NCBI GenBank assembly: GCA_012513515.1
Contig: JAAZCA010000013.1
Location: 1 to 37,259 of the forward strand
From: Myxococcales bacterium
GTDB lineage: Bacteria > UBA10199 > 2-02-FULL-44-16 > JAAZCA01
Direction of reading: 5' to 3'
DNA length: 37,259 bases
Shown here: positions 8,633 to 37,259 of the stretch, piece by piece
How positions within the stretch are numbered: position 1 is the first letter of the stretch
Layout: each line of letters begins with the position of its first letter
Made by a program: the position numbers and the translations under genes
The notes under the pieces: generated by a model
What the model saw: only the letters and a program-made list of their open reading frames with translations
What the model was told of the DNA's origin: nothing
Database searches by the model: none

Positions 8633-9640
8633 ATGATAAAAAAATTTTTCAAATTTATTCTTCTGCTGACCTTCATCACCGTGGCCGTGGCGGCCCTCTC
8701 ATTTTATGTGGCGGCCACCAAGTGGAGGTCCCCTTCCGATGCCGAACTCGATGTGAGGCCAGGTTCTTCCCTCAGGAGTATCGCGGCGCAGATGCACGAT
8801 GTGGGAATCATAAGGGTCCCCAAACTTTTTGAACTTTACGTCAGGTCGAAGGGGGCGGGTGGAAAGATGAAAGCGGGGATGTACGATTTTCCGGCTGGTA
8901 TGAACATGATCGAGGCTGCAGGAAAGCTCATCAGCGGAGATGTCCGCGCATACGACTTCACAATCATAGAGGGTTGGAACATAGAGGATATAGCGAAGGC
9001 CCTAGTCGGCAAGCCGTTCATAGTAAATGATGATATGCCTGCGGAGTTTAGGAGGCTTGCGCGCGACGAATCGCTCATGGACGAGCTCGGCATTTTTGAG
9101 GTCCCCTCTTTCGAAGGGTTTTTATTTCCGGACACATATCGATTCGACTATCCTCTCTCCGCAAAGGATTTCATAAGGCGGCTAGTATCGAGGTTTGATG
9201 AGGTTTGGCGATCCGTGCCCTCCGGAGGGGATGGAAGAAGCAGGAACGAGATCATCACGCTTGCCTCTATCGTGGAAAAGGAGACCGGAATTCCATCGGA
9301 GAGAGCTTTAGTTGCGGGCGTGTTCATGAACAGGCTTTTGAAGGGGATAGCTCTCCAGAGCGATCCGACGATCATCTACGGTCTTTCGAATTTTGACGGC
9401 AACATCAGGAAGCCCGATATATCCAATCCTCATCCATATAACACCTATGTTCACCGCGGGCTGCCGCCTGGCCCAATATGCAATCCTGGCAGGGCTTCAA
9501 TCATAGCAGCTATGAACCCCGAAAAGACTGAATATTTCTATTTCGTATCGATGAATGACGGCTCACATCACTTTTCCAAGGACCTCGCAGAGCATCTCAA
9601 GGCGGTCAGGAGATATCAGACCTTTCGGAGCGATAAATGA
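8633..9640 (+). CDS. mltG: Endolytic murein transglycosylase (MltG/YceG)
   Basis: 335 residues from the ATG at 8633, with AGGGGGA four bases upstream. A TTG at 8618 is a poorer start. The N-terminal membrane anchor is at about 5-25, then a LysM-like subdomain (about 35-80) and the YceG catalytic domain with the family glutamate in ITLASIVEKETG and the motifs GVFMNRL, LQSDPTIIYGL, NPHPYNTYVHRGLPPGPICNPG. The enzyme cuts nascent glycan strands at the inner membrane and is thought to set chain length. Its stop overlaps the ssnA start by 4 bases (ATGA), so housekeeping and catabolic genes are joined in one transcript, which is unusual. Confidence 0.93.
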   Translation: MIKKFFKFILLLTFITVAVAALSFYVAATKWRSPSDAELDVRPGSSLRSIAAQMHDVGIIRVPKLFELYVRSKGAGGKMKAGMYDFPAGMNMIEAAGKLISGDVRAYDFTIIEGWNIEDIAKALVGKPFIVNDDMPAEFRRLARDESLMDELGIFEVPSFEGFLFPDTYRFDYPLSAKDFIRRLVSRFDEVWRSVPSGGDGRSRNEIITLASIVEKETGIPSERALVAGVFMNRLLKGIALQSDPTIIYGLSNFDGNIRKPDISNPHPYNTYVHRGLPPGPICNPGRASIIAAMNPEKTEYFYFVSMNDGSHHFSKDLAEHLKAVRRYQTFRSDK

Positions 9641-10977
9641 ACGAAAAGAAGATTCTTATTTCAAACGGGAGCGTCATCTGCGGGAATGGAAAGGTTTTCC
9701 CCAAGGGATGGATTCTGATCGACGGCGGAAAAATTTCCAGAATGGGTTCTTCGAAGCCCCCTTCTTGCGGAGAGAATACGATAGTTCTGGATGCTCAGGG
9801 GCACTATGTTATGCCCGGTTTTATAAATGCCCACACTCATCTGTACAGTCAGCTCGCGCGCGGTATCCCTGCGGGCAGGATGAAGAGTTTTGGACAAGTT
9901 CTCAAAGGGCTATGGTGGAAGCTCGATCGCGCTCTCACGCTCGAGGACGTGTACGTGAGCGCCACGCTTGGTGCGGTTGAGGCTATCAAGTCCGGAGTTA
10001 CCACGGTAGTGGATCATCACGCTAGCTATGGCGCTATCACCGGTTCACTTGGCGCGGTTTCAGAGGCCGTATCGAATCTTGGAGTGCGCGCCTCTATCTG
10101 TTTTGAAATATCCGACAGGTGCGGCAAAGGGGCGCGCGATGAGGCGGTGGCCGAGACCGGGCTTTATCTGGAGAGTTTGAAAAATCATCAGGCGAGCGAT
10201 CCGCGTTTTCTTCTCAGGGGGATGGTGGGATTGCATGCATCCATGACCCTCTCGGACGAAACCCTCGAGCAGGCTCTCGAACTCATGGAGATATTCGGCG
10301 TAGGGGCGCACGTTCATGTTGCAGAAGGAATTGAGGATGTAAATGCGACGCGAAAGATCTGCGGTCTTAGCCCGGCAGCTCGCTTGGTCAGGAAGGGAAT
10401 CTTGAATCCGAACTCCCTTGCTATTCACTGCGTCCACGTCGACGAGGAGGATATCAAACTCATAAAAAAGGCCGGATGTTATGCCGTGCACAACCCATCT
10501 TCCAATCTCAATAACGCGGTTGGAGTTGCTCCATTTCTAGCTCTCTGCAGGGGCGGCGTTCCGGTCGCTATAGGAACTGACGGAATGAGCTCGGGCGTGG
10601 CCTGTGATATAAAACTGGCGTCGGTTCTCCATAAGCCTGGAGCCTTGGATGCGCAGGCTGCTTGGAATGAAGTCGAAGGCGCCGTCCGTTTCGTTGCTCC
10701 GCATATGGTTTCCGGAATGTTTGGCTGCAGCGTGGGCGTTTTGGAAAAAGGTGCCGCTGCAGATGTAATAATAGTCGATGATGCGCCGCCAACTCTTCTT
10801 GACGGAAAAAATTCGTGGGGGCACACTATTTTTGGCGTGTTGAATGCGCGGGTGCGCACCACGATAATCGACGGAAAAATTCGGATGCATGATTTTCAAA
10901 TGGCTGATATAGACGAAATTTCTCTCTCCAATGCTGCGAGGAAGCTTTCGAAGCGGCTTTGGAAGAGGATCATTTGA
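9637..10977 (+). CDS. ssnA: SsnA-type amidohydrolase / putative aminohydrolase
   Basis: 446-residue metal-dependent hydrolase of the amidohydrolase superfamily. It has the metal HxH pair in NAHTHLYSQ (His66, His68), GLHASMTLSDE, HVHVAEG and HCVHVDEEDI for further metal and substrate His residues, and the catalytic Asp in GTDGMSSG. In enterics SsnA sits in the purine and selenium-linked gene cluster with ygeW, ygeY, hyuA and ygfK, and related enzymes deaminate guanine or other purines and pterins. The same partners follow here, which supports the SsnA call over a plain guanine deaminase. It overlaps mltG by 4 bases. The exact substrate is not proven. Confidence 0.8.
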   Translation: MNEKKILISNGSVICGNGKVFPKGWILIDGGKISRMGSSKPPSCGENTIVLDAQGHYVMPGFINAHTHLYSQLARGIPAGRMKSFGQVLKGLWWKLDRALTLEDVYVSATLGAVEAIKSGVTTVVDHHASYGAITGSLGAVSEAVSNLGVRASICFEISDRCGKGARDEAVAETGLYLESLKNHQASDPRFLLRGMVGLHASMTLSDETLEQALELMEIFGVGAHVHVAEGIEDVNATRKICGLSPAARLVRKGILNPNSLAIHCVHVDEEDIKLIKKAGCYAVHNPSSNLNNAVGVAPFLALCRGGVPVAIGTDGMSSGVACDIKLASVLHKPGALDAQAAWNEVEGAVRFVAPHMVSGMFGCSVGVLEKGAAADVIIVDDAPPTLLDGKNSWGHTIFGVLNARVRTTIIDGKIRMHDFQMADIDEISLSNAARKLSKRLWKRII

Positions 10978-11035
10978 AAATATATACTTTTACCGGCGTC
11001 TGTGCCGACTAATTTTTGATCGATGGAGGTTGTCA

Positions 11036-12418
11036 ATGGTTAAAGAACTTGTTTGGGGCCCCACCTACGATGAGATGCTCGATCCCTCAAAGATTCCACA
11101 CGCTGTTCGGAGCAAGGCGATAGAAGCGCTGGAGGGAGATCCGCTTTCGCCGCTCAATCTTTACAATATTTCCTGGAAGGATTCTTCCAACAGGATACGT
11201 CATATCGTTCTTCCCAAGGAGCTTACCGGGGTTGACGCTGAAATATGTGTGATAACCGGGCGGGGTTTTCCAACCGGCAGCCACAAGGTCGGTGCGACCT
11301 ATTCGTGCACGGTTGAAAAACAGATCGCTGGCGAAATAGAGCCTGGCAGACATCGCCTTATATGGCCTTCGACAGGGAACTTTGGAGTGGGTGGCGCCTA
11401 CGTCGGTGAACGAATGAACTACGAATCGCTCGTCATTCTTCCTGAAGAGGTAAGCAAGGAGCGCTTCGAAAAAATTGCCTGGTACGGAGCTAAGTACTTC
11501 AAGACGCCGGGGTGCGAATCAAACGTGAAAGAAATCTATGACAAGACGCACGAGCTGGAGCAAGAGCCAAACACCATCACGGTGAATCAGTTCACCGAGT
11601 TTGCGAACTATCGTTTTCATTACTACGTGACAGGCAATACCCTCGTCGAACTCTTCGAAGAGTTGAAACGCAGGGGCGTCGGCAGCAGGTTTGCCGCGAT
11701 AACTTCCGCTATGGGCTCGGCCGGCACCATCGCCTGCGGAGACAGGGTGAAGGAGAGCCATCCCAGTTGTCGCATAATCGGGCTTGAGCCTGTGCAGTGC
11801 CCGACGCTCTACTCAAACGGTTTTGGGGGGCACGACATACAGGGGATAGGGGGCAAGCACGTCACATGGATTCACAATACCGACAACACCGACGCGATGA
11901 TCTGCATAGACGAATGGGATTCAAAAAAGGGGATGCAGCTCATTCATGAAGAGGTCGGGACCGAACTCCTTGTCAGCCTCGGCGCGGATAGAAATGTGAT
12001 GGAGGAGATGAAGGACCTCTTCGGCATATCCGGTATATGCAATATACTAGGGGCGATAAAGGCCGCGAAATTTTATGGATTTGGAAAAGGCGATATACTC
12101 TTCACCATTGCAACTGACTCTATCGACAGGTATTACAGCATTCTGGATCAGATGAACAAATTGCTTGGGAAGATGGACAAGGCTGAGGCCGAACGGAGGC
12201 TTGTTTCCATATTTCACCGACAGGGGACGGACTATGTGCTTGAGGGAACGAAACACGCTCACGACTGCTGGGCCAACCTGAAGTATTACACATGGGTGGA
12301 GCAACAGGGCAAAAGCGAGGAGGAATTGCGCGCCCAGAGGTCTCAGGAATATTGGAAGAAGCATCTGGCCGGGATCGCCGATACAAACAGAGCTATAATT
12401 GAACGCAGAAGGTTTTAA
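11036..12418 (+). CDS. PLP-dependent beta-family (fold type II) enzyme of the purine/selenium-type cluster
   Basis: 460 residues from the ATG at 11036, with GGAGGT just upstream. A longer open frame to 10931 runs into ssnA and is not used. Fold type II features: the presumed PLP Lys84 in TGSHKVGATYS, the phosphate or substrate loop PSTGNFGVGG, and a glycine-rich GSAGTI. Its sequence is not that of the YgeX diaminopropionate ammonia-lyase that normally occupies this cluster in E. coli; it looks closer to cysteine synthase-like proteins with long N- and C-terminal extensions. I infer an ammonia-lyase or beta-elimination/replacement step on an amino acid intermediate. The family is clear, the reaction is not. 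Confidence 0.72.
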   Translation: MVKELVWGPTYDEMLDPSKIPHAVRSKAIEALEGDPLSPLNLYNISWKDSSNRIRHIVLPKELTGVDAEICVITGRGFPTGSHKVGATYSCTVEKQIAGEIEPGRHRLIWPSTGNFGVGGAYVGERMNYESLVILPEEVSKERFEKIAWYGAKYFKTPGCESNVKEIYDKTHELEQEPNTITVNQFTEFANYRFHYYVTGNTLVELFEELKRRGVGSRFAAITSAMGSAGTIACGDRVKESHPSCRIIGLEPVQCPTLYSNGFGGHDIQGIGGKHVTWIHNTDNTDAMICIDEWDSKKGMQLIHEEVGTELLVSLGADRNVMEEMKDLFGISGICNILGAIKAAKFYGFGKGDILFTIATDSIDRYYSILDQMNKLLGKMDKAEAERRLVSIFHRQGTDYVLEGTKHAHDCWANLKYYTWVEQQGKSEEELRAQRSQEYWKKHLAGIADTNRAIIERRRF

Positions 12419-12435
12419 TTTTTTGGAGTGTACAG

Positions 12436-13809
12436 ATGGAAGCTGTCAGAAACGCCAAGATATCTGCGCTGGATGGAAATTCAACGCGCTTGGTTGATAT
12501 CGCGATCAAAGATGGTATCGTCGCTGAAATTCTTCCCTCTGGTACTGTGCCGGCATCTGATGATGCGCTGGATGCCAAAGGGATGCTTCTCCTTCCTGGC
12601 GCTCTCGATCCCCATGTTCATTTCGATACCCCCGGTTATACCGACAGGGAGGATTTTTCCTGCGGTTCGATGGAGGCGGCTTCAGGTGGAGTTACGTGCG
12701 TTATAGATATGCCAGACACCTCCGTTCCTCCGGTTACCAATAGAAAAAATTTTCAGGCCAAGCTGAAAGTCATCTCCGAGATGTCGGTGATAGATTTTGC
12801 GCTCTGGGGCGGGATCTCCGGCAATTCGATCAGGCAGGCGAATTGGAAGAAGGATGTACAGTCCCTGATCGATCTTGGCGTGGTAGGATTCAAGACCTAT
12901 CTGCTCTCCGGCATGCGAGAATTCGAAAATCTCTATCCCCTCGAGCTCGTCGAGGCGATAAAGTGCGTGAAGGACTTGGGTTCCATAGTCGGACTTCATG
13001 CCGAGGACAGGGAGTTCGTGCAGAAGAAGATGGCCATGCTGCAGACCGCAGGGCGATTCGATCCTAAGGCATATTATGAATGCAGGATGGATCCTTCCGA
13101 ACTCAATGGCGTCATACAAGGTGTTTCCATCGCATCAGAGACGCGATGCCCTTTGCACATAGTCCATCTTGGGTCGGCCAAGGGGCTGAAGGAGATAGTC
13201 AAGGCCCGTTCATCAGGAGTTGATCTTACATGCGAGACATGCGCTCATTATCTGGCTTTTTCATTCGAGGATCTGATCTCCATGGGGTCCGTGCTAAAAA
13301 CTGCTCCGGTGGTCAAGACCTACGAAGATTCCGCCGCTCTCTGGAACGCTGTCTGCGATGGGACGATCGACTTCGTTGCCAGCGATCATGCTCCTTGCAG
13401 GGATGTTGAAAAAAATACGGGAAGCATCTGGACCGATTACGCCGGCACCCCCGGCACTGGCCTGATGTTCCCATATATCTTTTCGGAGGGGTATTTAAAA
13501 GGGAGGTTCGATCTATCCAGGCTCATCCAGCTGACATCTTCTTCCGCTGCCAAGCGGTTCGGGCTTTATCCTAAAAAAGGCGCTATTGCAGCAGGCAGCG
13601 ATGCGGATTTTATGATTGTGGATGAAACTAAAAAATGGACAGTGAAGGGCTCAAGTTTTTTTTCAAAGGGCCACCTCACTCCCTTCGAGGGAAGGGAATT
13701 CACGGGGAAGGTTGTAACTACAATCTGCCGGGGCAGCGTCGTCTATGATCATAGGTCTGGATTCAAAGTTTCTCCCGGGTACGGAAAGTTTGTGGATAGA
13801 AAACATTAG
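12436..13809 (+). CDS. hyuA: Dihydropyrimidinase/allantoinase-like cyclic amidohydrolase
   Basis: 457 residues. It hydrolyses a cyclic amide ring (hydantoin, dihydropyrimidine or allantoin type). Binuclear metal site: His60 and His62 in DPHVHFDTPG, the carboxylatable Lys153 in GFKTYLL, His188 in GLHAEDRE, His244 in HIVHLGSA and the catalytic Asp in ASDHAPC. Start is the ATG at 12436, preceded by TTGGAGTG. It corresponds to hyuA of the enteric ygeW-ygeX-ygeY-hyuA cluster, and several motifs look allantoinase-like. PreT/PreA in the same operon would deliver a reduced pyrimidine, so dihydropyrimidine is one possible substrate. Which ring it opens cannot be decided here. Confidence 0.8.
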   Translation: MEAVRNAKISALDGNSTRLVDIAIKDGIVAEILPSGTVPASDDALDAKGMLLLPGALDPHVHFDTPGYTDREDFSCGSMEAASGGVTCVIDMPDTSVPPVTNRKNFQAKLKVISEMSVIDFALWGGISGNSIRQANWKKDVQSLIDLGVVGFKTYLLSGMREFENLYPLELVEAIKCVKDLGSIVGLHAEDREFVQKKMAMLQTAGRFDPKAYYECRMDPSELNGVIQGVSIASETRCPLHIVHLGSAKGLKEIVKARSSGVDLTCETCAHYLAFSFEDLISMGSVLKTAPVVKTYEDSAALWNAVCDGTIDFVASDHAPCRDVEKNTGSIWTDYAGTPGTGLMFPYIFSEGYLKGRFDLSRLIQLTSSSAAKRFGLYPKKGAIAAGSDADFMIVDETKKWTVKGSSFFSKGHLTPFEGREFTGKVVTTICRGSVVYDHRSGFKVSPGYGKFVDRKH

Positions 13810-13818
13810 GAGGTCGTC

Positions 13819-15021
13819 ATGTCGAATATCTCAATGCAAATAGCCCGTCTTGCCGAGTCACTTTCCACCAGCATCGCGAATTTTTTGGCGGATATAGTTT
13901 CTATCCCTTCCCTCTCCGGAGATGAAAAGAGGGTGGTCGAGCGCATAGGTCATGAGATGAAGGCGGTAGGTTTCGACGAGGTCCGCGTCGACGGACTGGG
14001 GTCCGTCATCGGGAGGATAGGGAGCGGAAAAAAGATAATAGCGATGGATGCGCATATCGACACGGTGGATGTTGGGACGCGCGAACTTTGGGACTTCGAC
14101 CCTTTCGACGGGCACGTCAAAGGAGGCAAGGTGTGGGGACGTGGCGCCGCCGATCAAAAGGGTGGAATAGCTTCGCTGGTTTACGCCGGCAAGATCATTA
14201 AGGAGCTTGGGCTTGAGGATGATTACACGCTGCTGGTTACAGGCACCGTGATGGAAGAGGATTGCGATGGACTGTGCTGGGACTATCTTATCAGGGAAGA
14301 AAATGTGAGGCCGGATCTCTGTCTCATTACCGAACCCACGGGGCTCAGAATATATCGCGGCCACAGGGGCCGTATGGAGATGAAGGTGAACGTTAAGGGG
14401 CTGTCATCACACGGATCAGCGCCCGAGCGCGGCGACAATGCGATATACAAGATGGCCCCGCTTGTTCTGGATATAGAAAAACTCAATGCTGAACTTCAGC
14501 CTGACACAGAAAATTTTCTCGGCAAGGGCACCGTCGTCGTGAGCGATATATCGTCGGTCAGTCCTTCGCTTTGTGCCGTGGCCGATGGATGCTCCATACA
14601 TCTCGATAGAAGGCTTACTGCGGGCGAGACAAAGGATATAGCAGTTGGACAGATACTCAACATAGTCGGGCGCGCTGGCGGCAAGGTGAGTATCCCCGTT
14701 TATGACAAACCGGGATACACTGGCAAGTCTCACCCCATGGAGTCATACTTCCCGACTTGGGTTACTCCAAAGGATCACCCTGCGGTTCGCGCCGCAGTTT
14801 CGTCATATGAAGGGCTCTTCAATTCCAAACCCGTCGTGGATAAGTGGACCTTTTCTACCAACGGCGTGACGGTCATGGGGGTCCACGGAATTCCTTGCGT
14901 AGGTTTCGGCCCCGGATTCGAAGAACAGGCGCATGCTCCGAATGAATGGACTCCTGTCGAACATCTCTGGAAGGCCGCGGCATTTTATGCGCAGTATCCC
15001 AAATCATATCTTTCTTTATAG
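13819..15021 (+). CDS. ygeY: YgeY-like M20 family peptidase/amidohydrolase
   Basis: 400-residue zinc-dependent M20 hydrolase related to ArgE and DapE. Metal ligands: His79 and the following Asp81 in AMDAHIDTVD, Asp112 in GRGAADQKGG, the Glu pair in VMEEDCDG, and a late His in the EEQAHAPNEW region. A dimerisation domain lies between about 180 and 300 (RGRMEMKVNVKGLSSHGSAPE). Start is the ATG at 13819 behind AGGAGG. YgeY is the standard neighbour of YgeW and HyuA, and is expected to cleave an amide or carbamoyl intermediate made by the ring-opening enzyme. The 95 bases after it probably contain a second promoter. Confidence 0.85.
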   Translation: MSNISMQIARLAESLSTSIANFLADIVSIPSLSGDEKRVVERIGHEMKAVGFDEVRVDGLGSVIGRIGSGKKIIAMDAHIDTVDVGTRELWDFDPFDGHVKGGKVWGRGAADQKGGIASLVYAGKIIKELGLEDDYTLLVTGTVMEEDCDGLCWDYLIREENVRPDLCLITEPTGLRIYRGHRGRMEMKVNVKGLSSHGSAPERGDNAIYKMAPLVLDIEKLNAELQPDTENFLGKGTVVVSDISSVSPSLCAVADGCSIHLDRRLTAGETKDIAVGQILNIVGRAGGKVSIPVYDKPGYTGKSHPMESYFPTWVTPKDHPAVRAAVSSYEGLFNSKPVVDKWTFSTNGVTVMGVHGIPCVGFGPGFEEQAHAPNEWTPVEHLWKAAAFYAQYPKSYLSL

Positions 15022-15061
15022 CGTGACTCAAATGAGGGTTATTTGTAAGTTTTTGCTGCGC

Positions 15062-15088
15062 TTGTAATTTTGGATGTCCTGATATAGT
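15062..15088 (+). promoter_or_regulatory. Possible internal promoter before the carbamoyltransferase gene
   Basis: TTGTAA (15062-15067) and TATAGT (15083-15088) are separated by 15 bases, 29 bases ahead of the ATG at 15117. The gap of 95 bases is the longest inside the operon, which favours a secondary promoter. The spacer is short, so confidence is limited. Confidence 0.35.
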
Positions 15089-15116
15089 GCTGATACACAA
15101 ATAGAAGGGAGGCATC

Positions 15117-16127
15117 ATGTCATCTATGAAAGGAAGGCATTTCATTACAACGCAGGATTGGAGCAAGGCGGAGCTGGATCGTGCGCTCGAACTTTCCTTT
15201 GAGCTGAAGGAAAAAAAGAAAAGGGGAGAGATTACGGACTGGCTGAAGAATCAGACGGTTTTCATGATCTTCTACGAACAGTCGACGCGCACCAGAAATT
15301 CCATGGGCTGCGGGATAACCCAGTTGGGCGGGAGTTCACACGATCTGACTCCTGACAAGATGCAGCTCTCTCACGGTGAAACGGCGAAGGATACCGCGCA
15401 GGTTCTTTCGAGGATGGGGCACGCCATCGCATGCCGCAACTGTTTTTATGATATAGGCAACAAGTACCTTCGCGAGATGGCTAAGTGGTCCGACATCCCG
15501 ATTCTGAGCCTTCAGTGCGATGTTTATCATCCCATGCAGGTTATGGCCGATACGATGGTGATGCAGGAAAAGTTCGGGAAAAATCTCAAGGGGCTTAAAG
15601 TTACGATCAGCTGGGCATATGCAGAAAGTCATGCCAAACCCGTCTCGGTTCCGCAGTCCCAGCTTCTTATGTTCGCGCGCTACGGGGTGGATATCACTGT
15701 TGCCGCTCCGAAAGAGTTTCCGCTTCAAAAAAATATAGTTGAACAGGCCCGAAAGAATGCGGCGGAAGGCGGCGGTTCGATTCGTTTCGTCGACGATATG
15801 GACGCCGGGTTCGAGGGCGCCCAGGTTGTCATTCCCAAAAACTGGGGAGGCTTTGCGCACTTTGATAAATGGAACGACAGCGATGAGCAGAAGCACGAGA
15901 TGAAAGCAAATCTAGAAAAATATAAGAGCTGGATCTGCGATGAGCGCCGCATGAAGCTCGCATCCAAGGACGTGAAATACATGCATGCGCTGCCTGCCGA
16001 CCGCGGGAAGGAAGTCACTGATGCTGTTATAGACAATGAAAACTGGTCCATCGTAATAGACGAAGCCGAAAACAGGCTACATACCGCCAAGGCGGTCATG
16101 GCCCTTACAATGGGCGGGATCTCTTGA
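15117..16127 (+). CDS. ygeW: YgeW-like carbamoyltransferase
   Basis: 336 residues. This is an aspartate/ornithine carbamoyltransferase superfamily member of the YgeW type. The carbamoyl-phosphate loop is STRTR at 56-60, the second site is HPMQ at 138-141 (the family usually has HPTQ), and the C-terminal motif MHALPADRG corresponds to the HCLP or HALP loop. Start is the ATG at 15117 behind GGGAGG. YgeW proteins carry out carbamoyl transfer or, in the catabolic direction, phosphorolysis of a carbamoylated amine to carbamoyl phosphate. A carbamate kinase (YqeA) that would recover ATP is not in the window. It sits 4 bases ahead of the FHA gene. Confidence 0.85.
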   Translation: MSSMKGRHFITTQDWSKAELDRALELSFELKEKKKRGEITDWLKNQTVFMIFYEQSTRTRNSMGCGITQLGGSSHDLTPDKMQLSHGETAKDTAQVLSRMGHAIACRNCFYDIGNKYLREMAKWSDIPILSLQCDVYHPMQVMADTMVMQEKFGKNLKGLKVTISWAYAESHAKPVSVPQSQLLMFARYGVDITVAAPKEFPLQKNIVEQARKNAAEGGGSIRFVDDMDAGFEGAQVVIPKNWGGFAHFDKWNDSDEQKHEMKANLEKYKSWICDERRMKLASKDVKYMHALPADRGKEVTDAVIDNENWSIVIDEAENRLHTAKAVMALTMGGIS

Positions 16128-16131
16128 GACT

Positions 16132-16818
16132 ATGGCAGAAGAGAATAACAGCGAAGAGGCTTTGATCGAAGAGACGATAGGCGATCTCTCCGAGGCGGAA
16201 TGGGCTCCGGCGCTTACCGTGATATCGGGGCGCGGTGAAGGTAGCTGTATTCCAGTCGGCGATGGCGAATTTATAATAGGCAGGTTAAAGGATTGCGGCC
16301 TTAGGGTAGATGACAACTCCGTTTCGCGCAGGCACGCGAAGATAGACCAACGCCACGGGAGGTTCACAATAACGGATCTAGGGAGCAAGTGGGGGACCAA
16401 GATCAACGGTCAGGCCGTAGATCGCGCTGAAATAAAATTCGGCGACAAGATCGAAATCGCGGGCACTCTCATCAGTTTCGATCTCAAGAGGAGGGCCGAG
16501 TTCTGTCTGAAGAAGGGACGCGATAAACTGAAGATGTTTATCATCGCGTTGGCTGTTTTGGTATTTGTGGGAATCGCCGCGATTGCGTATTTCAGGTACA
16601 ACGTTCAACAAAACATGTCTATGCCCGGCGGCGATGTTCTGGCGCAGATCATGAGCAATTATGACAGTGGAATCTACTACTACAATAAAATTGACTCCGA
16701 TCCTGTCAAGAACAAGCAGCTGTGCCTTGAGCATATGAACGCGGTGGTCGATCTCGATCCCACCGGCAAGACGCGCTTTTCACGCAGCGCCAGAAGGATA
16801 ATCGAGGGGTTGGAATAG
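16132..16818 (+). CDS. FHA-domain protein with a central transmembrane helix
   Basis: 228 residues. A cytoplasmic N-terminal FHA domain at about 22-115 shows the phosphothreonine-binding pattern FIIGRLKDCGLRV, SVSRRHAKI and GSKWGTKING. One membrane helix follows at about 136-155 (FIIALAVLVFVGIAAIAYF), then a small outward-facing domain of about 70 residues with tyrosines and few known features (NYDSGIYYYNKIDSD). It starts 4 bases after the carbamoyltransferase stop, and its stop is adjacent to the TTG start of preT. FHA proteins read Ser/Thr phosphorylation, yet no kinase or phosphatase lies nearby. The reason for such a protein inside a nucleobase catabolic operon is unknown. Confidence 0.8.
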   Translation: MAEENNSEEALIEETIGDLSEAEWAPALTVISGRGEGSCIPVGDGEFIIGRLKDCGLRVDDNSVSRRHAKIDQRHGRFTITDLGSKWGTKINGQAVDRAEIKFGDKIEIAGTLISFDLKRRAEFCLKKGRDKLKMFIIALAVLVFVGIAAIAYFRYNVQQNMSMPGGDVLAQIMSNYDSGIYYYNKIDSDPVKNKQLCLEHMNAVVDLDPTGKTRFSRSARRIIEGLE

Positions 16819-18099
16819 TTGCATGTTCCGTACGAGGATTTGATGCGCAAAGATTTGTTTACCGAAATTCAGGCGAAATTTGAGGCTAATCGCTGCCTGA
16901 TGTGCGCTGATGCTCCGTGCAGTTGCAACTGCCCCGCAGGGGTCGATGCGCGCGCTTTCATCAGAAAGATACGATTCGATAATCTCGATGGTGCAGTCAG
17001 GCTTCTCAAGAACTGCAATGTGCTTTCCGCTTCCTGCGCCTACATATGTCCGACCGGTTCCTCGTGCGCGGGTAAGTGCACGTCGGCACAGCTTTCTACT
17101 CCGATAGATATAGCGGGGCTGCAGAAATTCGTGATGGAATACGAGCGCAAGAGGGGGATGATAGTTCCTATTTTGGTTCCCGCAGATAAGGGTCCCATCG
17201 CAATCGTAGGCTCCGGACCGGCAGGTCTCGGATGTGCGGCCAAGCTGGCTTCGCTAGGTTACAAGGTCAAGGTGTTTGAGAAAGACGGCAGAATAGGCGG
17301 GCTTCTCACTAGCACAATCCCTTCATTCAGGCTTCCGAAAGAGGTCGTTGAATTTGAAATCGAGTTTATAAAAAAGCTCGGTGTGGAATTTGTAACCGAT
17401 AAAAAAATAGATGATCCCAGGCTTCTTTTTAAGCAGGGTTTCAAGGCAATATTCATTGGAACCGGGCTTGTCAAATCGAGAGTCGCTGAATTCATAGGGG
17501 AAGATCGCCCGGGGGTTTTTCAGGCGCTGGATTTTTTGAGGAGCGCCAAGCTGGGAAAAATTCCAGATATGGGCCGCCGGGTTCTCGTCATCGGCGGCGG
17601 CGACACCGCGATAGATTCCGCCCGCGTCGCGAAGAGAGCGGGCACGGAATGTTTCATACTGTACAGGCGGATGCAGAACGAAATGCCTGCCTATGAAGAG
17701 GAGCTAGATGCGGCATGGCACGATGGCGTCGAGTTCTATTTTCGCGTCATTCCGAGATCTGTCGTTGGAAAGGACAGAATCGAGGGGCTAAAATGCGTGC
17801 GCGTGAAATGGCATGAGAAAATCGCTGGCATGAAGCAGGGCTATGATGTCGAAGGCCCCGAATTCACGATTTCATGCGACAGCGTGATCGTGGCTGCCGG
17901 GCAGGAGCCTGAAACGAATTTTGGATTGAGAAGCGGAAGCTCCGGCCTTATCGCGCTTGAAAAGGACTCGTTCAAAACATCAGAAAAATTCATCTACGCA
18001 GGAGGCGATATTACCTGCGGCGGAGGAACTGCTGCGCGCGCCGTTGGAATGGGAAAGCTTGCCGCTATCGAAATCGACAGCGATCTTTCATCTGCGTAA
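16819..18099 (+). CDS. preT: PreT: NAD-dependent dihydropyrimidine dehydrogenase, flavin/Fe-S subunit
   Basis: 426 residues from a TTG immediately after the FHA stop. An ATG at 16843 with GAGGA five bases upstream is an equally good start. The N-terminal Fe-S region carries CLMCADAPCSCNCPAG and CAYICPTGSSCAGKC. Then comes a GltD/PreT-type FAD- and NAD(P)-binding module with GSGPAGLGCAAKL, GGGDTAIDSARVA and YAGGDITCGGGT. Sequence pattern and order match E. coli PreT closely, for example APCS..CPA and RLPKEVVEFEI. PreT transfers electrons between NAD(H) and the PreA catalytic subunit. It could also serve as the small-subunit-like partner that YgfK supplies in other clusters. The next gene is preA, 11 bases away. 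Confidence 0.87.
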   Translation: MHVPYEDLMRKDLFTEIQAKFEANRCLMCADAPCSCNCPAGVDARAFIRKIRFDNLDGAVRLLKNCNVLSASCAYICPTGSSCAGKCTSAQLSTPIDIAGLQKFVMEYERKRGMIVPILVPADKGPIAIVGSGPAGLGCAAKLASLGYKVKVFEKDGRIGGLLTSTIPSFRLPKEVVEFEIEFIKKLGVEFVTDKKIDDPRLLFKQGFKAIFIGTGLVKSRVAEFIGEDRPGVFQALDFLRSAKLGKIPDMGRRVLVIGGGDTAIDSARVAKRAGTECFILYRRMQNEMPAYEEELDAAWHDGVEFYFRVIPRSVVGKDRIEGLKCVRVKWHEKIAGMKQGYDVEGPEFTISCDSVIVAAGQEPETNFGLRSGSSGLIALEKDSFKTSEKFIYAGGDITCGGGTAARAVGMGKLAAIEIDSDLSSA

Positions 18100-18110
18100 A
18101 TTGGGGAACT

Positions 18111-19316
18111 ATGTATCCTGATCCTAAAGCTGATCTGACGGTCAATTTCTGCGGGGTGAGTTTTGAAAATCCATTCATCCTCGCTGCGGCTCCACCCACT
18201 GACGATCTCGATATGGTGGCGGACGCATTCAAGGCAGGATGGGCCGGTGCGGTCTTAAAGACCACATCGGTTGAGGGGACTGAAGTTGATCTGGCATATC
18301 CCATGATGAGCGGCATCGACCTGGGCAACGACAGGCTGATGGGTATGGGAAACATAGACCTGATAAGCGAGCATCGCGTCGATGTGGTAGAAAAAAGAAT
18401 TTCCGAGTTGAAGAGGAACTTCCAGAGCAAAGTCGTCATCGCTTCGGTAAGTGGCAGTTCGAAGGAGAGCTGGCAGGAGGTAACGCAGCGGGTGATCGCT
18501 GCTGGGGCTGATCTCGTAGAATGCAGCTTCTCCTGTCCGCAGGGTTCACTCGGGCTTAAGGCTGGAATGATGCTTGGGCAGGACCCTGTCGCATCGGCAT
18601 TGGTAGTCGACTGGATCAAGAGTTCCGCCGGGGAAACGCCGGTGATAATAAAGCTGACTCCGCAGGTTGCCGATATCGCCGAGATAGCGATGGCTGTCAA
18701 AGATGCCGGGGCCGATGCTGTTTGCGTAGGCAACACGCTTCCGGCGCTCATGGGTGTTGATGTAGAAGACTTTGTTCCGATTCCGAACGTCTGCGGCAAA
18801 TCGACATATTCCGGGCTCTCCGGTCCTGCCGTGAAGCCCATATCGCTGAAGTGCATATCCGTTATATCCAAGGAGGTCGGCATCCCAATAGCCGGCAGCG
18901 GAGGTGCGGTGAGCTGGAGGGATGCCCTCGAGTTCATCCTCGTTGGCGCCGGCGTCGTCGAATTTTGCACCGCCGTGATGCATTACGGATATGACATCAT
19001 AGACGACTTGAAGGAGGGGCTCTCCTTTCACCTGGAAAGGCTGGGTATCTCTTCCGTGGCCGAACTCCGTGGTCGATCGCTCGAGTTTATAACTTCACAC
19101 GACGACCTGACTCGCGCCAAGTGGCGTCCTTCGATAGATCTTGAATGCTGTGTCAAATGCGATGCCTGCGTGATCGCATGCCGCGACGGGGGTCACCGCG
19201 CGATAAGGGCCGATGATGATAGAAAGCCGGAAGTGGACGACGACAAGTGTGTGGGTTGCGCGCTTTGTTCCACGATGTGCCCGGTCAGGTGTATAAAGAT
19301 GGTTAAGAGGGGCTGA
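18111..19316 (+). CDS. preA: PreA: dihydropyrimidine dehydrogenase catalytic subunit
   Basis: 401 residues. A dihydroorotate dehydrogenase-like FMN barrel covers about 8-310 (LTVNFCGVSFENPF, GWAGAVLKT, FSCPQGSLG, IIKLTPQVADI, YSGLSGPAVKPISL, IPIAGSGGA). It ends with two ferredoxin-type [4Fe-4S] motifs, CCVKCDACVIACRDGG and CVGCALCSTMCPVRC. This matches E. coli PreA across its length. With PreT it interconverts uracil or thymine and their 5,6-dihydro forms using NADH. In the operon it would pair with the HyuA-type ring hydrolase. PreT and PreA together cover the same domains as the single YgfK protein, so a purine-derived substrate is also possible. Confidence 0.88.
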   Translation: MYPDPKADLTVNFCGVSFENPFILAAAPPTDDLDMVADAFKAGWAGAVLKTTSVEGTEVDLAYPMMSGIDLGNDRLMGMGNIDLISEHRVDVVEKRISELKRNFQSKVVIASVSGSSKESWQEVTQRVIAAGADLVECSFSCPQGSLGLKAGMMLGQDPVASALVVDWIKSSAGETPVIIKLTPQVADIAEIAMAVKDAGADAVCVGNTLPALMGVDVEDFVPIPNVCGKSTYSGLSGPAVKPISLKCISVISKEVGIPIAGSGGAVSWRDALEFILVGAGVVEFCTAVMHYGYDIIDDLKEGLSFHLERLGISSVAELRGRSLEFITSHDDLTRAKWRPSIDLECCVKCDACVIACRDGGHRAIRADDDRKPEVDDDKCVGCALCSTMCPVRCIKMVKRG

Positions 19317-19337
19317 GGATAAAAGGGTGGTCGTCTG

Positions 19338-20597
19338 ATGAGCAAATTTATATTTGAGTGCATAGATTGCAAGAAGCATTACATTCCCAGCGATGTCGAG
19401 TACCTATGTGCCGAATGTGAAAAGTTGAATAAGCCGATGCAGCCTCTAAGAGGTATGCTACGCTGCATATACGATTACGGAAATATTTCAAAAAATTTTT
19501 CAAGGGTTGAAATAGTCACTAGCGAGAAGAAAAATTTTTCACGCTATCTAGATATATTGCCGATAGATTCTCCCGATTCAATCCCCCCTCTTGTTACGGG
19601 GCCGACTCCGCTTCGCCGCGCCATGAAGCTCGAACATGATTTTGGAGTGGATGAAATCTGGATCAAGGACGACACTGTTCTGCCGACCGGATCTTTCAAG
19701 GACCGCGCTTCTTCGATGGTCGTAGCAATTGCTGCTGAAAAGGGAATCGAGACCATAGCTACCGCATCTACGGGAAATGCGGCTACTGCCTTGGCAGGAA
19801 TGGCTGCTTCTGCAGAACTTTCTAGTGTCATCTTCGTTCCGGAATCAGCGCCGAAGGCCAAGCTGACGCAGATAGCGGTCTATGGAGGGCGTCTTGTTCC
19901 GATAAAGGGGAACTACGATCAGGCGTTTGAACTTTCCACAGAGGCCTGCCGCGAATATGGATGGTATAACAGAAATACCGCTTACAATCCTTTTACAATC
20001 GAAGGAAAAAAAACGGCAGCTCTTGAGATATGGGAGCAGATGGAGTTTTCCGCTCCCGACTGGGTCGTGGTTCCGACAGGCGACGGAGTTATCCTAGCCG
20101 GCATTGAAAAGGGATTTTCAGATCTTCATCGAATGGGGCTTGTCGAAAAGATGCCAAAGCTCGCCGTCATTCAGGCGGAGGGGTGCCAGCCGATAGTTAA
20201 GAGCTTTTTGTCAGGTAATCCTGAAATCGAGCCGGAGCTGACTCCCAGGACGATAGCCGATTCTATCTCCGTCGGAGTCCCGCGTGCGGGTAGATGGGTG
20301 ATGCAGGCGCTCTCTTCCTGCGGAGGAACCTGCCTCGCCGTTTCGGATGAGGAGATAATTTCGGCGATAGCATATCTTGGATCCTCCATGGGCGTTTTTG
20401 CCGAGCCGGCCGCCGCCACTGCTGTTGCGGGTCTGAAAAAGATGATCGAGTCGGGATCGATATCGGGGGGGGAACGAGTCGCAGTGCTTGTAACCGGGAA
20501 CGGTCTAAAGGATGTGCCAGCGGCTTCACAGTCTGTCGAGTTTCCTCATTCGATAAGCCCCGATCTAAAATTGCTCCGGAAAATCATATCCCGCTGA
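19338..20597 (+). CDS. thrC: Threonine synthase-like PLP enzyme
   Basis: 419 residues. It has an N-terminal zinc-ribbon-like Cys set (Cys8, 11, 24, 27: CIDC ... CAEC), then a fold type II PLP domain with Lys121 in TGSFKDRASS, ATASTGNAATALAG for phosphate binding, and a glycine-rich ending PTGDGVIL. The likely reaction is O-phosphohomoserine to threonine. Start is the ATG at 19338, weakly supported by GGTGG. It directly follows preA by 21 bases. In this context it may instead serve the catabolic operon as a PLP lyase, since the usual diaminopropionate lyase is missing. Threonine synthase remains the best family call. Confidence 0.75.
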   Translation: MSKFIFECIDCKKHYIPSDVEYLCAECEKLNKPMQPLRGMLRCIYDYGNISKNFSRVEIVTSEKKNFSRYLDILPIDSPDSIPPLVTGPTPLRRAMKLEHDFGVDEIWIKDDTVLPTGSFKDRASSMVVAIAAEKGIETIATASTGNAATALAGMAASAELSSVIFVPESAPKAKLTQIAVYGGRLVPIKGNYDQAFELSTEACREYGWYNRNTAYNPFTIEGKKTAALEIWEQMEFSAPDWVVVPTGDGVILAGIEKGFSDLHRMGLVEKMPKLAVIQAEGCQPIVKSFLSGNPEIEPELTPRTIADSISVGVPRAGRWVMQALSSCGGTCLAVSDEEIISAIAYLGSSMGVFAEPAAATAVAGLKKMIESGSISGGERVAVLVTGNGLKDVPAASQSVEFPHSISPDLKLLRKIISR

Positions 20598-33912: not shown

Positions 33913-34047
33913 TTATTTCATCCAGATTATAATCTGCCGCACGGCTGCGAGATATATCGCTGCTGTACCTATTCCCAACAGTATGGTCTTCGCCACGGCC
34001 TTGGCGAAGGATTTGTCCGTGAAATATGAGATGATCTTTTCGAGCAT
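33913..34047 (-). CDS. 44-residue membrane microprotein coupled to the ABC-GGDEF gene
   Basis: A short frame starts at the ATG at 34045-34047, sharing one base with the TGA of the upstream gene (TGATG), and ends at TAA 33913-33915. It encodes MLEKIISYFTDKSFAKAV at the N-terminus and a hydrophobic helix (about 20-36, TILLGIGTAAIYLAAV) ending in IIIWMK. The stop-start overlap and a GGGGAGAG seven bases upstream argue that it is translated. The sequence suggests a single-pass or peripheral membrane peptide. I know of no family for it. Its function is likely tied to the partner protein. Confidence 0.6.
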   Translation of the reverse strand: MLEKIISYFTDKSFAKAVAKTILLGIGTAAIYLAAVRQIIIWMK

Positions 34048-36236
34048 CAGCTCTCCCCGGTTTCAGCTTTCGACTGTGGAAATATCATAGTTGTATCTTC
34101 ATTTTGACTTTCAGAAATTATTTTTGTCAGCATGCCTATCAATTCTTCCGGAGAGAGATTCGTCTTTTCGACAACACATGTCCCCGCCAATTTTATAGAT
34201 AGGGATTCCGGACAGACTGATTTGCAGAACTCCTTCATCTTCTCCGGGAGAGAGCACCTTATCCGTTTCGAAAATTGTTTTAAATGATCGAGGTCTATTT
34301 CAGGGAGGAGGATGGCTAGCGAGTTTTTGCCGGTTTTTGCGCTGCTATCCACTATCCGTATAATGTATGACAGGGCTGCCGCCGCCGCGTCGATGATTCT
34401 ATCGCCCTCATTGGGTGTCGCCTCCGGCGGGTGGATAGATTTTGGCGTTATCACAATGACCGCTACGGAAAATTTAGAACCATATCTGGCATTTCTTTCC
34501 ATTTCCACCAACAGTTCGTGCTCAAAAGATTTGGAGCTCCCGAAATTTTCCGAGACATAGTTCCTGAACTCATCTGAATTTTTCAGGAGCGATTCAAAGG
34601 AACCGCGCTCGGATATTTTCCCGCCGCTGAAAAAAGCTATCTCATCGGCCATCTTCAGCGACTGCAGCTTGGAGGCAAGAATTATCACCTTCTTGGTTTT
34701 GGAAATTGCGACTATAGTTTCGCCGAATTTGTATTCGTTTCTCAGTTCTTCCAGCCGATCCTGTTCCTGAAAAATTATGATGGACGGGTCTTTGAGCAGA
34801 ACCCTCGCCATCGCCACGAGGTTTCTTTCCATCGCCGAAAGATACGCTCCGCCGGGGCCTGCCTCGGTGTCGTACCCTCCCGGCAATTTTTCTATGAATT
34901 CATCCGCGCCTACCGTTTGAGCCGCGCGTATCGCGTCGCCGCGCTCTTTCTGCTGGCTTCCGTACAGGATGTTTTCCATGATGGAGCCGTCGAAGATTAC
35001 CGCTTTTTGCGACAGAAAGCCTATTTTCTCTCCAACCTTTCCGAAGCTGATTTCAGAAATCTCGTTTTCGCTGACCATCGCTGCCGTTTCATCTTCGGCG
35101 AGGTTCCTGATCATCGATCCCGTAAATTTTTTTGCCTCGTCCTCAGATGCGCCGACTATTGCAAGTATTCCCCTTGTTGAGACGGGCAGCACGCCCATCT
35201 CAGCGGAGGAAGGATAATTGAAATCTTCGAAGGATATCCCGCCATCGCCGGAAGGAATTTTTTCCTGGCTTGACAGAATCTCGGAAGAAGTTCTTGCCGC
35301 CTCCCTGTATGCGCGAAACGAGAGCATGAAGTCCTTCGCATGAAGCAGGTGAGTTAAAAGAAGGGCCGTATAGATGGCAGCAGCCAGTGCCATTCCTGCA
35401 GTAATCGCGCCGGATGCCAGCCGGTAGGCCGTGTACCATGCCACGGTCAATCCCCATATCTTCAAGGCCGGAGATGATGATAGCCTGCAGAGCGCTTCCA
35501 GCACCTCGGATTTTATCGCAGCCATATCCCGTCGCCGAAGGAGCGTAGCGACGGCCGAGCTTTCGCTTTCCGCCTGCGCAAAGGCCCTTACCGATTCAGC
35601 CGCCTCCATCCGTTCGCAGATTCTTTTTTCGAGCGCTCTCTGTGAGCGCACGCCTTCGAAAAAGGAGGATATCTTCAGCTTCTGGCAGATGTTTTCCTCC
35701 ATCCCGCGGATGAATATCGCGGAAAATCCCATCAACGATATGACGGGATCGATTCTCCAGAGCATGGCTGAGATGATAAAAAAGCCGAGCCCTCTTGCAA
35801 AAGCTCTGGGCAGCGAACCCGCGAGAAAAGAGGCTATCCGGTCCGGCATATGCGATATGAGATCTATCGTCCTCTCCTTTTCTTCGCACGAGGATACGCT
35901 TTCGGGATTTGCTATAGCGCATTCAAAGAATTTCTTGGAAAGGGTTGATGACAGCTGCCTCGAGGATATTGTGCCAAGGTGCAGCGCGAAGAAATTGAGC
36001 GCGGAGGATGCTAGGATGGAGAGCGCCGATACCGCTATGCACGCATTCATCATCCTTATATTTTTTTCCGATGCCGCAAAGTCGATCAAGAGCCTCGCCA
36101 TCTCAGGGGCTGGGACCCAGAGAAGGAAGGCCAGTGCGGAGAATATGGCGGAAAACGCGATAGCGACCACAGTCGCCGGCGTGAAAAGGCCGTAGGATTT
36201 CATCGTCTTTATGAAGCGCATCTGGGAATGTGGCAT
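34047..36236 (-). CDS. Degenerate ABC exporter-like protein fused to a degenerate GGDEF domain
   Basis: 729 residues from the ATG at 36236; a TTG at 36263 and later ATGs are also possible, and none has a clear ribosome site. An ABC exporter-type membrane domain covers about 20-320. The nucleotide-binding domain follows at about 340-560. Walker A reads GASEDEAKKF with no GK[ST], the signature is LSAME instead of LSGGQ, Walker B is IIIFQE with Gln for Asp, and the H-loop His is Ser (ILASKL). The Q-loop (GFLSQ) remains. Residues about 571-720 look like a GGDEF fold (ERNARYGSKFSVAVIVI, RIVDS, AILLPEID) with GGDEF replaced by GKNSL. The frame is intact over the whole length. I infer a membrane sensor or scaffold rather than a transporter or cyclase. 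Confidence 0.7.
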   Translation of the reverse strand: MPHSQMRFIKTMKSYGLFTPATVVAIAFSAIFSALAFLLWVPAPEMARLLIDFAASEKNIRMMNACIAVSALSILASSALNFFALHLGTISSRQLSSTLSKKFFECAIANPESVSSCEEKERTIDLISHMPDRIASFLAGSLPRAFARGLGFFIISAMLWRIDPVISLMGFSAIFIRGMEENICQKLKISSFFEGVRSQRALEKRICERMEAAESVRAFAQAESESSAVATLLRRRDMAAIKSEVLEALCRLSSSPALKIWGLTVAWYTAYRLASGAITAGMALAAAIYTALLLTHLLHAKDFMLSFRAYREAARTSSEILSSQEKIPSGDGGISFEDFNYPSSAEMGVLPVSTRGILAIVGASEDEAKKFTGSMIRNLAEDETAAMVSENEISEISFGKVGEKIGFLSQKAVIFDGSIMENILYGSQQKERGDAIRAAQTVGADEFIEKLPGGYDTEAGPGGAYLSAMERNLVAMARVLLKDPSIIIFQEQDRLEELRNEYKFGETIVAISKTKKVIILASKLQSLKMADEIAFFSGGKISERGSFESLLKNSDEFRNYVSENFGSSKSFEHELLVEMERNARYGSKFSVAVIVITPKSIHPPEATPNEGDRIIDAAAAALSYIIRIVDSSAKTGKNSLAILLPEIDLDHLKQFSKRIRCSLPEKMKEFCKSVCPESLSIKLAGTCVVEKTNLSPEELIGMLTKIISESQNEDTTMIFPQSKAETGES

Positions 36237-36294: not shown

Positions 36295-36456
36295 GACCTT
36301 ACCGTTCCAACAATAACTTCGACCATGGACAATTGACCACTCGGGAATGACAATCACGCCGTCATTCCCGCGGCACTAAGCCGCCGCTAACGCGGGGCAA
36401 ACGGGAATCCTGTTCCAACCGTTCACCAGTCACGAGTCACGGCTGTTACGGGATCC
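36295..36456 (+). repeat. Dispersed intergenic repeat, copy D
   Basis: Bases 36295-36339 are identical to 6423-6467. They are followed by CACTCGGGAATGACAATCAC, GTCATTCCCGCGG (36361-36373), an altered hairpin block with CGCGGGGCAAACGGGAATCC, and CACCAGTCACGAGTCACGG. Its end overlaps the stop codon of the DUF4143 gene. The sequence differs more from copies B and C than those do from each other. Confidence 0.8.
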
Positions 36457-37259
36457 CAGCCTGCCCAATTAGCCATTCACTTGCCGGCACGACTTTAATT
36501 TTAAAGCCCTCCAAATCGATCATTTCAGATTGACTCAGCGTAATTATCGCGCCCTCTTTTATTGAAAGTGCTTTCATAGCGCAAATAAGCCCTAGCGTCT
36601 CGCGCTTCATGTTGCTCTCGTCCAAATTCGAGCAAACTTGATATGCCTTCACAATCTTTCTCCCCTGCTTAATTATAAAATCACACTCATTTTTATAATC
36701 GTCCCAATAAAACAGCTCATAATTATTTACATAAGAGAGCCGTTTTAACTCCACAGCAACTGCATTCTCTAAATATCTGCCTGTATCATCACTGAAAGCA
36801 AAACGTATCGAACTCGCCATGCCATTATCGATGCAATAGACTTTTTTAAATGAGGATTGCTGTTCTGTTAGCTTGTATGAAAACTTATTTAAAGTGAAAA
36901 TAAGAAAGCTTTTTTCCAGATAATTTATATATTCTCTGATTGTGTTTGAACTCTTTATCCCCAGACGTTTTGCAATCTTACTTGCTGAAATTTTCGATGT
37001 AATATTGTTAATAAGCAGGACCGATAACTCTTCGAGCTCTTTTGCGAATTGCAAACTATAACGAACGACTATGTCTTTTGTGATTATAGATGTGATCAAA
37101 TTACGGACAAACTCTTGACCAAATTTATAACGGTCAAAAATTCCACCATCAATCAAATACTCGTTAAGATGCTTCGACAATTCTCCAGAATATCTTGTCG
37201 TCTTCTTTGAATCTTTATAATCAAACTTTTGATAATCGAGATATTCAGCAAAATTCATA
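36446..37259 (-). CDS. DUF4143 (AAA_14-type) ATPase, C-terminal part only
   Basis: The window ends inside this gene; about 270 residues are visible. The region matches the C-terminal DUF4143 part of AAA ATPases often found in accessory DNA: YLIDGGIFDRYKF, KIAKRLGIKSSNTIREYINYLEKSFLIF, KVYCIDNGMASS, YLENAVAVELKR and a nuclease-like EHD/ECDF stretch (YKNECDFIIKQGRK). The N-terminal P-loop domain is outside the window. Base use is clearly more AT-rich than the other genes, which suggests horizontal acquisition. The final residues (GQAGIP) and the stop codon are encoded in repeat copy D. Confidence 0.75.
   Translation of the reverse strand, partial: MNFAEYLDYQKFDYKDSKKTTRYSGELSKHLNEYLIDGGIFDRYKFGQEFVRNLITSIITKDIVVRYSLQFAKELEELSVLLINNITSKISASKIAKRLGIKSSNTIREYINYLEKSFLIFTLNKFSYKLTEQQSSFKKVYCIDNGMASSIRFAFSDDTGRYLENAVAVELKRLSYVNNYELFYWDDYKNECDFIIKQGRKIVKAYQVCSNLDESNMKRETLGLICAMKALSIKEGAIITLSQSEMIDLEGFKIKVVPASEWLIGQAGIP

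Follow-up and report, generated by a model that had tools for sequence, protein, structure and literature searches.

We analysed a 37,259-nucleotide stretch of DNA from a Myxococcales bacterium (contig JAAZCA010000013.1; hereafter the window), whose last large gene encodes an ABC exporter-like protein with a degenerate GGDEF domain at its C terminus. This gene belongs to a family that combines an ABC exporter, a GGDEF-like domain, and a small downstream partner. Whole-genome and profile searches found the family in 10 of the 46 genomes examined from the class, the window's included, always as a single full-length copy. The reading that we favor, with a probability of about one half, is that these are exporters with a built-in receptor for cyclic di-GMP (c-di-GMP), and that in the window's lineage the exporter would have become an ATP-dead receptor or scaffold; both the binding of c-di-GMP and the function are predictions from sequence and models. 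The features that we will refer to are as follows.

34047..36236, minus strand: predicted ATPase-dead ABC exporter fused to a degenerate GGDEF domain; 729 amino acids from an ATG, one open frame
35274..36236, minus strand: type IV ABC exporter transmembrane domain, residues 1-321 (Pfam ABC_membrane at 50-295, alignment, domain identities, and helices in the model)
34572..35273, minus strand: degenerate nucleotide-binding domain (NBD), residues 322-555 (motif alignment); Walker A 362-370, Q-loop Q410, signature 466-473, Walker B 486-491, D-loop 494-497, H-loop 522
34047..34571, minus strand: C-terminal GGDEF-fold domain, residues 556-729 (AlphaFold2 model, GGDEF structures as top matches, alignment)
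33913..34047, minus strand: small partner gene, 44 amino acids with one predicted membrane helix; counterpart of the orthologues' small downstream genes

The exporter has lost its ATPase motifs

The window protein matches ABCB-type exporters in the PDB by sequence (phmmer, E 5e-50) and exporters by fold (E 1e-21), with PCAT1, TM287/288, and HlyB as the best fold matches and TmrAB among the others. A preliminary description, made from the DNA sequence alone, had named three profiles by which to check the domains. GGDEF scored above its curated Pfam cut-off (26.0 bits versus 23.8), but ABC_membrane (21.8 versus 28) and ABC_tran (21.6 versus 25) fell below theirs. The six-helix exporter transmembrane domain is nevertheless present, as judged by the sequence and fold matches to the PDB, and a model of the full-length protein retains the exporter topology.

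Aligned to an intact orthologue, Walker A reads GASEDEAKK instead of GSSGSGKTT, the signature reads LSAMERNL instead of LSGGQRQR, and the D-loop reads RLEE instead of SALD. Walker B reads IIIFQE instead of IIIFDE, so that the aspartate is gone and the glutamate is kept. Ser522 replaces the histidine of the H-loop, and a serine replaces the tyrosine of the A-loop. Among the motifs of the NBD that contact the nucleotide, just the glutamine of the Q-loop and the glutamate of Walker B are retained, and the set with which an active type IV exporter hydrolyzes ATP (Walker A, signature, the Asp-Glu of Walker B, and the H-loop histidine) is not present. The NBD can hardly run an ATP cycle, and we infer that the protein has neither ATPase activity nor transport. 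The alignment agrees with the preliminary description, which had listed the changes in Walker A, the signature, the Walker B aspartate, and the H-loop histidine along with the intact Q-loop. That description went on to state that all catalytic residues were lost in both modules. The loss of the motifs stands, but the Walker B glutamate is kept, and so are three residues of the GGDEF domain.

The GGDEF domain keeps a putative c-di-GMP site

The AlphaFold2 model of the C-terminal domain (pLDDT 82) matched GGDEF structures in Foldseek searches (E 1e-7, TM-score of about 0.6-0.7), complexes with c-di-GMP included, as expected if the domain has the GGDEF-like fold that had been proposed for it. At the position of the active site (A-site), the sequence is GKNSL (residues 636-640), as previously noted, and not the GG[DE]EF motif of diguanylate cyclases. 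This motif is missing in 10 of 10 family members, so its loss dates back to the ancestor of the family.

The residues that are kept correspond to the inhibitory site (I-site) of GGDEF domains: R627-x-x-D630 together with R658, a triad that is invariant across all 10 members in the alignment. In the window protein, the first arginine lies 9 residues before the A-site position and the distal arginine lies 28 residues after the aspartate. SgmT has the same spacing (R763, D766, and R794, with G772 at the A-site), and its R763A substitution abolishes c-di-GMP binding (PMC3509222). Furthermore, the arginine and the aspartate of the window's I-site align with residues of PDB entry 6zxm that read alanine in 6zxb and 6zxc. 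The distal position is an arginine in just 3 of 12 ordinary GGDEF domains of the class, versus 10 of 10 in the exporter family. Overall, the invariant triad points to the family's GGDEF domain as a predicted ligand receptor, with c-di-GMP as the putative ligand. Two genuine GGDEF domains are encoded elsewhere in the same genome, and these could be the source of c-di-GMP.

Loss of the ATPase motifs in two members of the family

Walker A, the signature, Walker B, and the H-loop are intact in eight of the 10 family members and are lost in the window protein and in one other, from genome G012. Because the motifs are intact in these eight, the positional orthologue among them (see below), the loss of the ATPase is secondary. 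The preliminary description had looked to homologues that share the architecture and the altered motifs; here the result went against it, as homologues with intact ATPase motifs were part of a refuting outcome that it had named beforehand. It had also suggested selection for a non-catalytic signaling or scaffolding role. The frame is indeed maintained, but the two modules did not lose their catalytic residues together: the ATPase loss is confined to particular lineages and the loss of the GGDEF A-site is ancestral.

The residues lost differ between the window protein and the G012 protein. In a tree without G012, the window protein joins its own order (support 98/99). A tree with both degenerate members unites them, and this join was flagged as a meeting of long branches. 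Since the lost residues differ and the window protein groups with its order when G012 is omitted, two separate losses would be the most economical reading. The G012 member (8582-10687 of L040, minus strand) is a second and apparently independent ATPase-dead member; part of its membrane domain is deleted, but it retains the I-site and is still followed by a small gene.

At the protein level, no relative exceeds about 27% identity to the window protein. A scan of genome contigs with the window protein as the single query gave no match; with a membrane-domain profile, the contig scan found four family members only, and the rest were ordinary exporters. A plasmid search returned ordinary ABC exporters only. 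We also examined a wider sample of 385 genomes, with two candidates scored per genome and figures taken from the matches listed, so that rarer fusions could escape. The outside-class matches listed end at about 575-605, short of most of the GGDEF domain, and the family's fusion was not seen among the matches listed from about 340 genomes outside the class. The exporter-GGDEF fusion looks class-restricted in this sample. A role like that of MsbA was judged unlikely because LpxC had no match in any of the 46 genomes of the class, which seems to be without the usual lipid A pathway, and because about half of these genomes have no ABC_membrane match.

Selection or decay

The frame, already noted as long and uninterrupted, has no stop in 729 codons. 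A neutral simulation gave a mean of about 3 stops once identity had dropped to 90%, and of 11-17 at 50-60%. The gaps in the family alignment preserve the frame. Of the alignment columns in which all eight intact members agree, the window protein keeps 11 of 12 in the GGDEF domain, 23 of 36 in the NBD outside of the motifs, 15 of 40 in the membrane domain, and 6 of 21 in the NBD motifs (GGDEF versus NBD motifs, p=0.0008; other NBD positions versus motifs, p=0.014). The corresponding figures for the G012 protein are 10 of 12, 19 of 36, 17 of 40, and 2 of 21. A non-catalytic role under selection is plausible.

Several observations weigh against an ATP-dead receptor or scaffold. The branch leading to the window protein has 6.57 changes per column (versus 0.2-2.2), its membrane domain is less conserved than its other parts (about 16-20% identity with the intact orthologues), its content of alanine and serine is raised, and its partner is shortened to 44 amino acids and is without the C-terminal motif; these features fit relaxed constraint. 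The full-length model has low-to-moderate confidence (pLDDT 69). As for the I-site, its first arginine and its aspartate are also found in ordinary GGDEF domains of the class (12 of 12 and 11 of 12, respectively), so the retention of these two residues may be partly structural.

The main rival is that the gene is a slowly decaying relic: the exporter would be dispensable and under relaxed selection, and the frame would survive because its product does no harm or still has some use. We consider this a possible account, and a less probable one than the receptor or scaffold. Besides the signs of relaxed constraint above, the gene's GC content at the three codon positions (0.50/0.43/0.59) shows a milder contrast than that of its neighbors (about 0.56/0.40/0.63), and ABC_membrane has no match in 24 of the 46 genomes of the class, which can thus do without such exporters. 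Against a relic stand the absence of stops where at least 11 are expected at that divergence, the frame-preserving gaps, the selective retention of the GGDEF domain and of NBD positions outside of the motifs, the preserved start of the coupled partner, and the same pattern in a second lineage (G012). A membrane domain that was recoupled to the proton gradient after the loss of the ATPase, as in SbmA and other SbmA-like peptide transporters (SLiPTs), would give an ATP-independent transporter. The exporter topology of the model and the kept glutamates E180, E208, and E225 would allow this, but these glutamates are kept across the family and are not new, SLiPTs are without NBDs and coupling helices whereas the window protein retains the NBD scaffold, and the membrane domain is its least conserved part; we regard this reading as improbable.

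Heterodimeric exporters often have a degenerate nucleotide site, and two of them, TM287/288 and TmrAB, appear among the fold matches, which would suit a degenerate half that pairs with an intact subunit. However, the known degenerate sites of heterodimeric exporters keep Walker A, which the window protein has lost. We rejected such a heterodimer as very unlikely, because the window protein is the only ABC_membrane match in a genome that is 99% complete and there is no second full-length family member. An assembly or sequencing artefact seems the least probable of all: the genome is a draft in 42 contigs, but the frame is intact over 729 codons, the neighborhood is conserved, the partner is coupled, and a comparable loss occurs in an independent genome (G012).

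Gene layout and the small partner

The exporter gene has alternative starts at TTG 36263 (738 amino acids) and ATG 36221, and the family profile begins at 36221. Downstream, the ATG of the 44-amino-acid partner overlaps the stop of the exporter (TGATG), with a GGGGAGAG stretch upstream of the partner start; the partner is translationally coupled to the exporter gene. The region 33913-36236 had been described as a single gene. Positions 34047-36236 are indeed uninterrupted, but 33913-34047 is the separate gene for the partner, so the region holds two genes in two frames and its last 134 bases belong to the partner's open reading frame.

Most family members have a small gene 3' of the exporter, usually overlapping it, that encodes an amphipathic start and one hydrophobic helix. 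The likeness of the window's partner to the family partners is above that of shuffled controls (12/2000 for the summed score; 0.002 against the partner from genome G002). The longer partners of the orthologues carry a periplasmic part, whose kinship is uncertain. We considered the partner as a reduced HlyD and left this as a hint, given a single weak Pfam match (HlyD_3, E 0.018, below the cut-off) and no convincing PDB match. Antisense to the exporter's membrane domain lies an open frame of 254 codons (35431-36195, plus strand) that has no Pfam match and is probably due to chance. A scan of the exporter protein for defense systems gave no match.

Gene neighborhood

The exporter gene is convergent to kbl, beyond which lie tdh, pfk, and a gene for an S41 peptidase. 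An intact family gene in genome G006 stands in an identical kbl-tdh-pfk-S41 arrangement, and the same genes lie nearby in G004; by its position, the window gene is thus orthologous to an intact exporter. What we take to be a thiolase/hydroxyacyl-CoA dehydrogenase pair (gene names assigned from sequence) lies divergently nearby in G004, G045, and G012. Most of the neighboring genes share 50-72% identity with those of G006 (one shares 40%), against just 27% for the exporter, so the speed-up is specific to the exporter gene.

At 36446-37258 (minus strand), the contig end truncates a gene for a DUF4143 protein, of which the C-terminal part remains; it matches the PADLOC candidate PDC-S01. Its GC content at third codon positions is 0.38 (versus about 0.63 in neighboring genes), and it was probably acquired horizontally. 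Farther away, at 9637-20597 (plus strand), is a block with an SsnA-like aminohydrolase, PALP enzymes, an allantoinase-like hydrolase, an M20 peptidase, a carbamoyltransferase, an FHA protein, a Fer4_20/pyridine-nucleotide oxidoreductase, and PreA, which looks like purine or pyrimidine catabolism.

A proposed mechanism and what it would mean

The family consists of type IV ABC exporters, expected to be homodimers, each with a C-terminal GGDEF domain and co-translated with a small single-pass partner. Its ancestor lost the synthetic active site of the GGDEF domain and kept the putative inhibitory site for c-di-GMP. In most species, c-di-GMP bound at this site would gate an exporter that is driven by ATP. 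The window's lineage has lost nearly all of the ATP-contacting motifs of the NBD but has retained the NBD scaffold, the putative c-di-GMP site, the partner, and the frame, which would leave a membrane-anchored, non-transporting c-di-GMP receptor or a scaffold (a pseudo-exporter). A bolder and more tentative claim is that a phylum-level bacterial lineage evolved exporters with a built-in c-di-GMP receptor and that at least twice it turned one into an ATP-independent, c-di-GMP-responsive membrane signaling protein by erasing the ATPase and keeping the rest.

If the I-site prediction is true, then the intact members would be exporters that c-di-GMP gates directly, by way of their fused GGDEF-like receptor, and the proteins from the window and G012 would be natural separation-of-function cases: the same protein minus the ATP engine. 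These two variants would let one ask which roles an exporter has besides pumping, and the set of orthologues makes this question testable.

Comparison with known systems

A literature search found no description of an exporter paired with a GGDEF-like domain, as the preliminary description had supposed, with the subscription literature largely outside its reach. The window protein resembles type IV exporters (similar to ABCB, MsbA, HlyB, or PCAT1) in its length, its Q-loop, its overall fold, and the order of transmembrane domain and NBD in one chain. It differs from them by the loss of Walker A, the signature, the Walker B aspartate, the D-loop, and the H-loop, by both ABC domains scoring below the curated Pfam cut-offs, and by the added C-terminal GGDEF-fold domain. 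SLiPTs also descend from ABC exporters and work without ATP, but they have no NBD, whereas the window protein keeps a degenerate one (residues 322-555). An ammonium transporter (PDB 8qj3 and 8qpf) has a C-terminal GGDEF-like part that matches the C-terminal profile; its transporter fold is different, so it is a precedent for joining a transporter to a GGDEF domain and no more. The C-terminal domain itself is similar to PopA and SgmT (dead A-site, intact I-site) and also to PelD, in that it has a GGDEF-type fold and has lost the A-site motif. The placing of its R-x-x-D (nine residues ahead of the A-site) and of its distal arginine (28 residues after the aspartate) is also that of SgmT (PMC3509222). 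In contrast to PopA, SgmT, and PelD, this predicted receptor domain is fused to an ABC exporter instead of a receiver domain, a kinase, or a Pel subunit.
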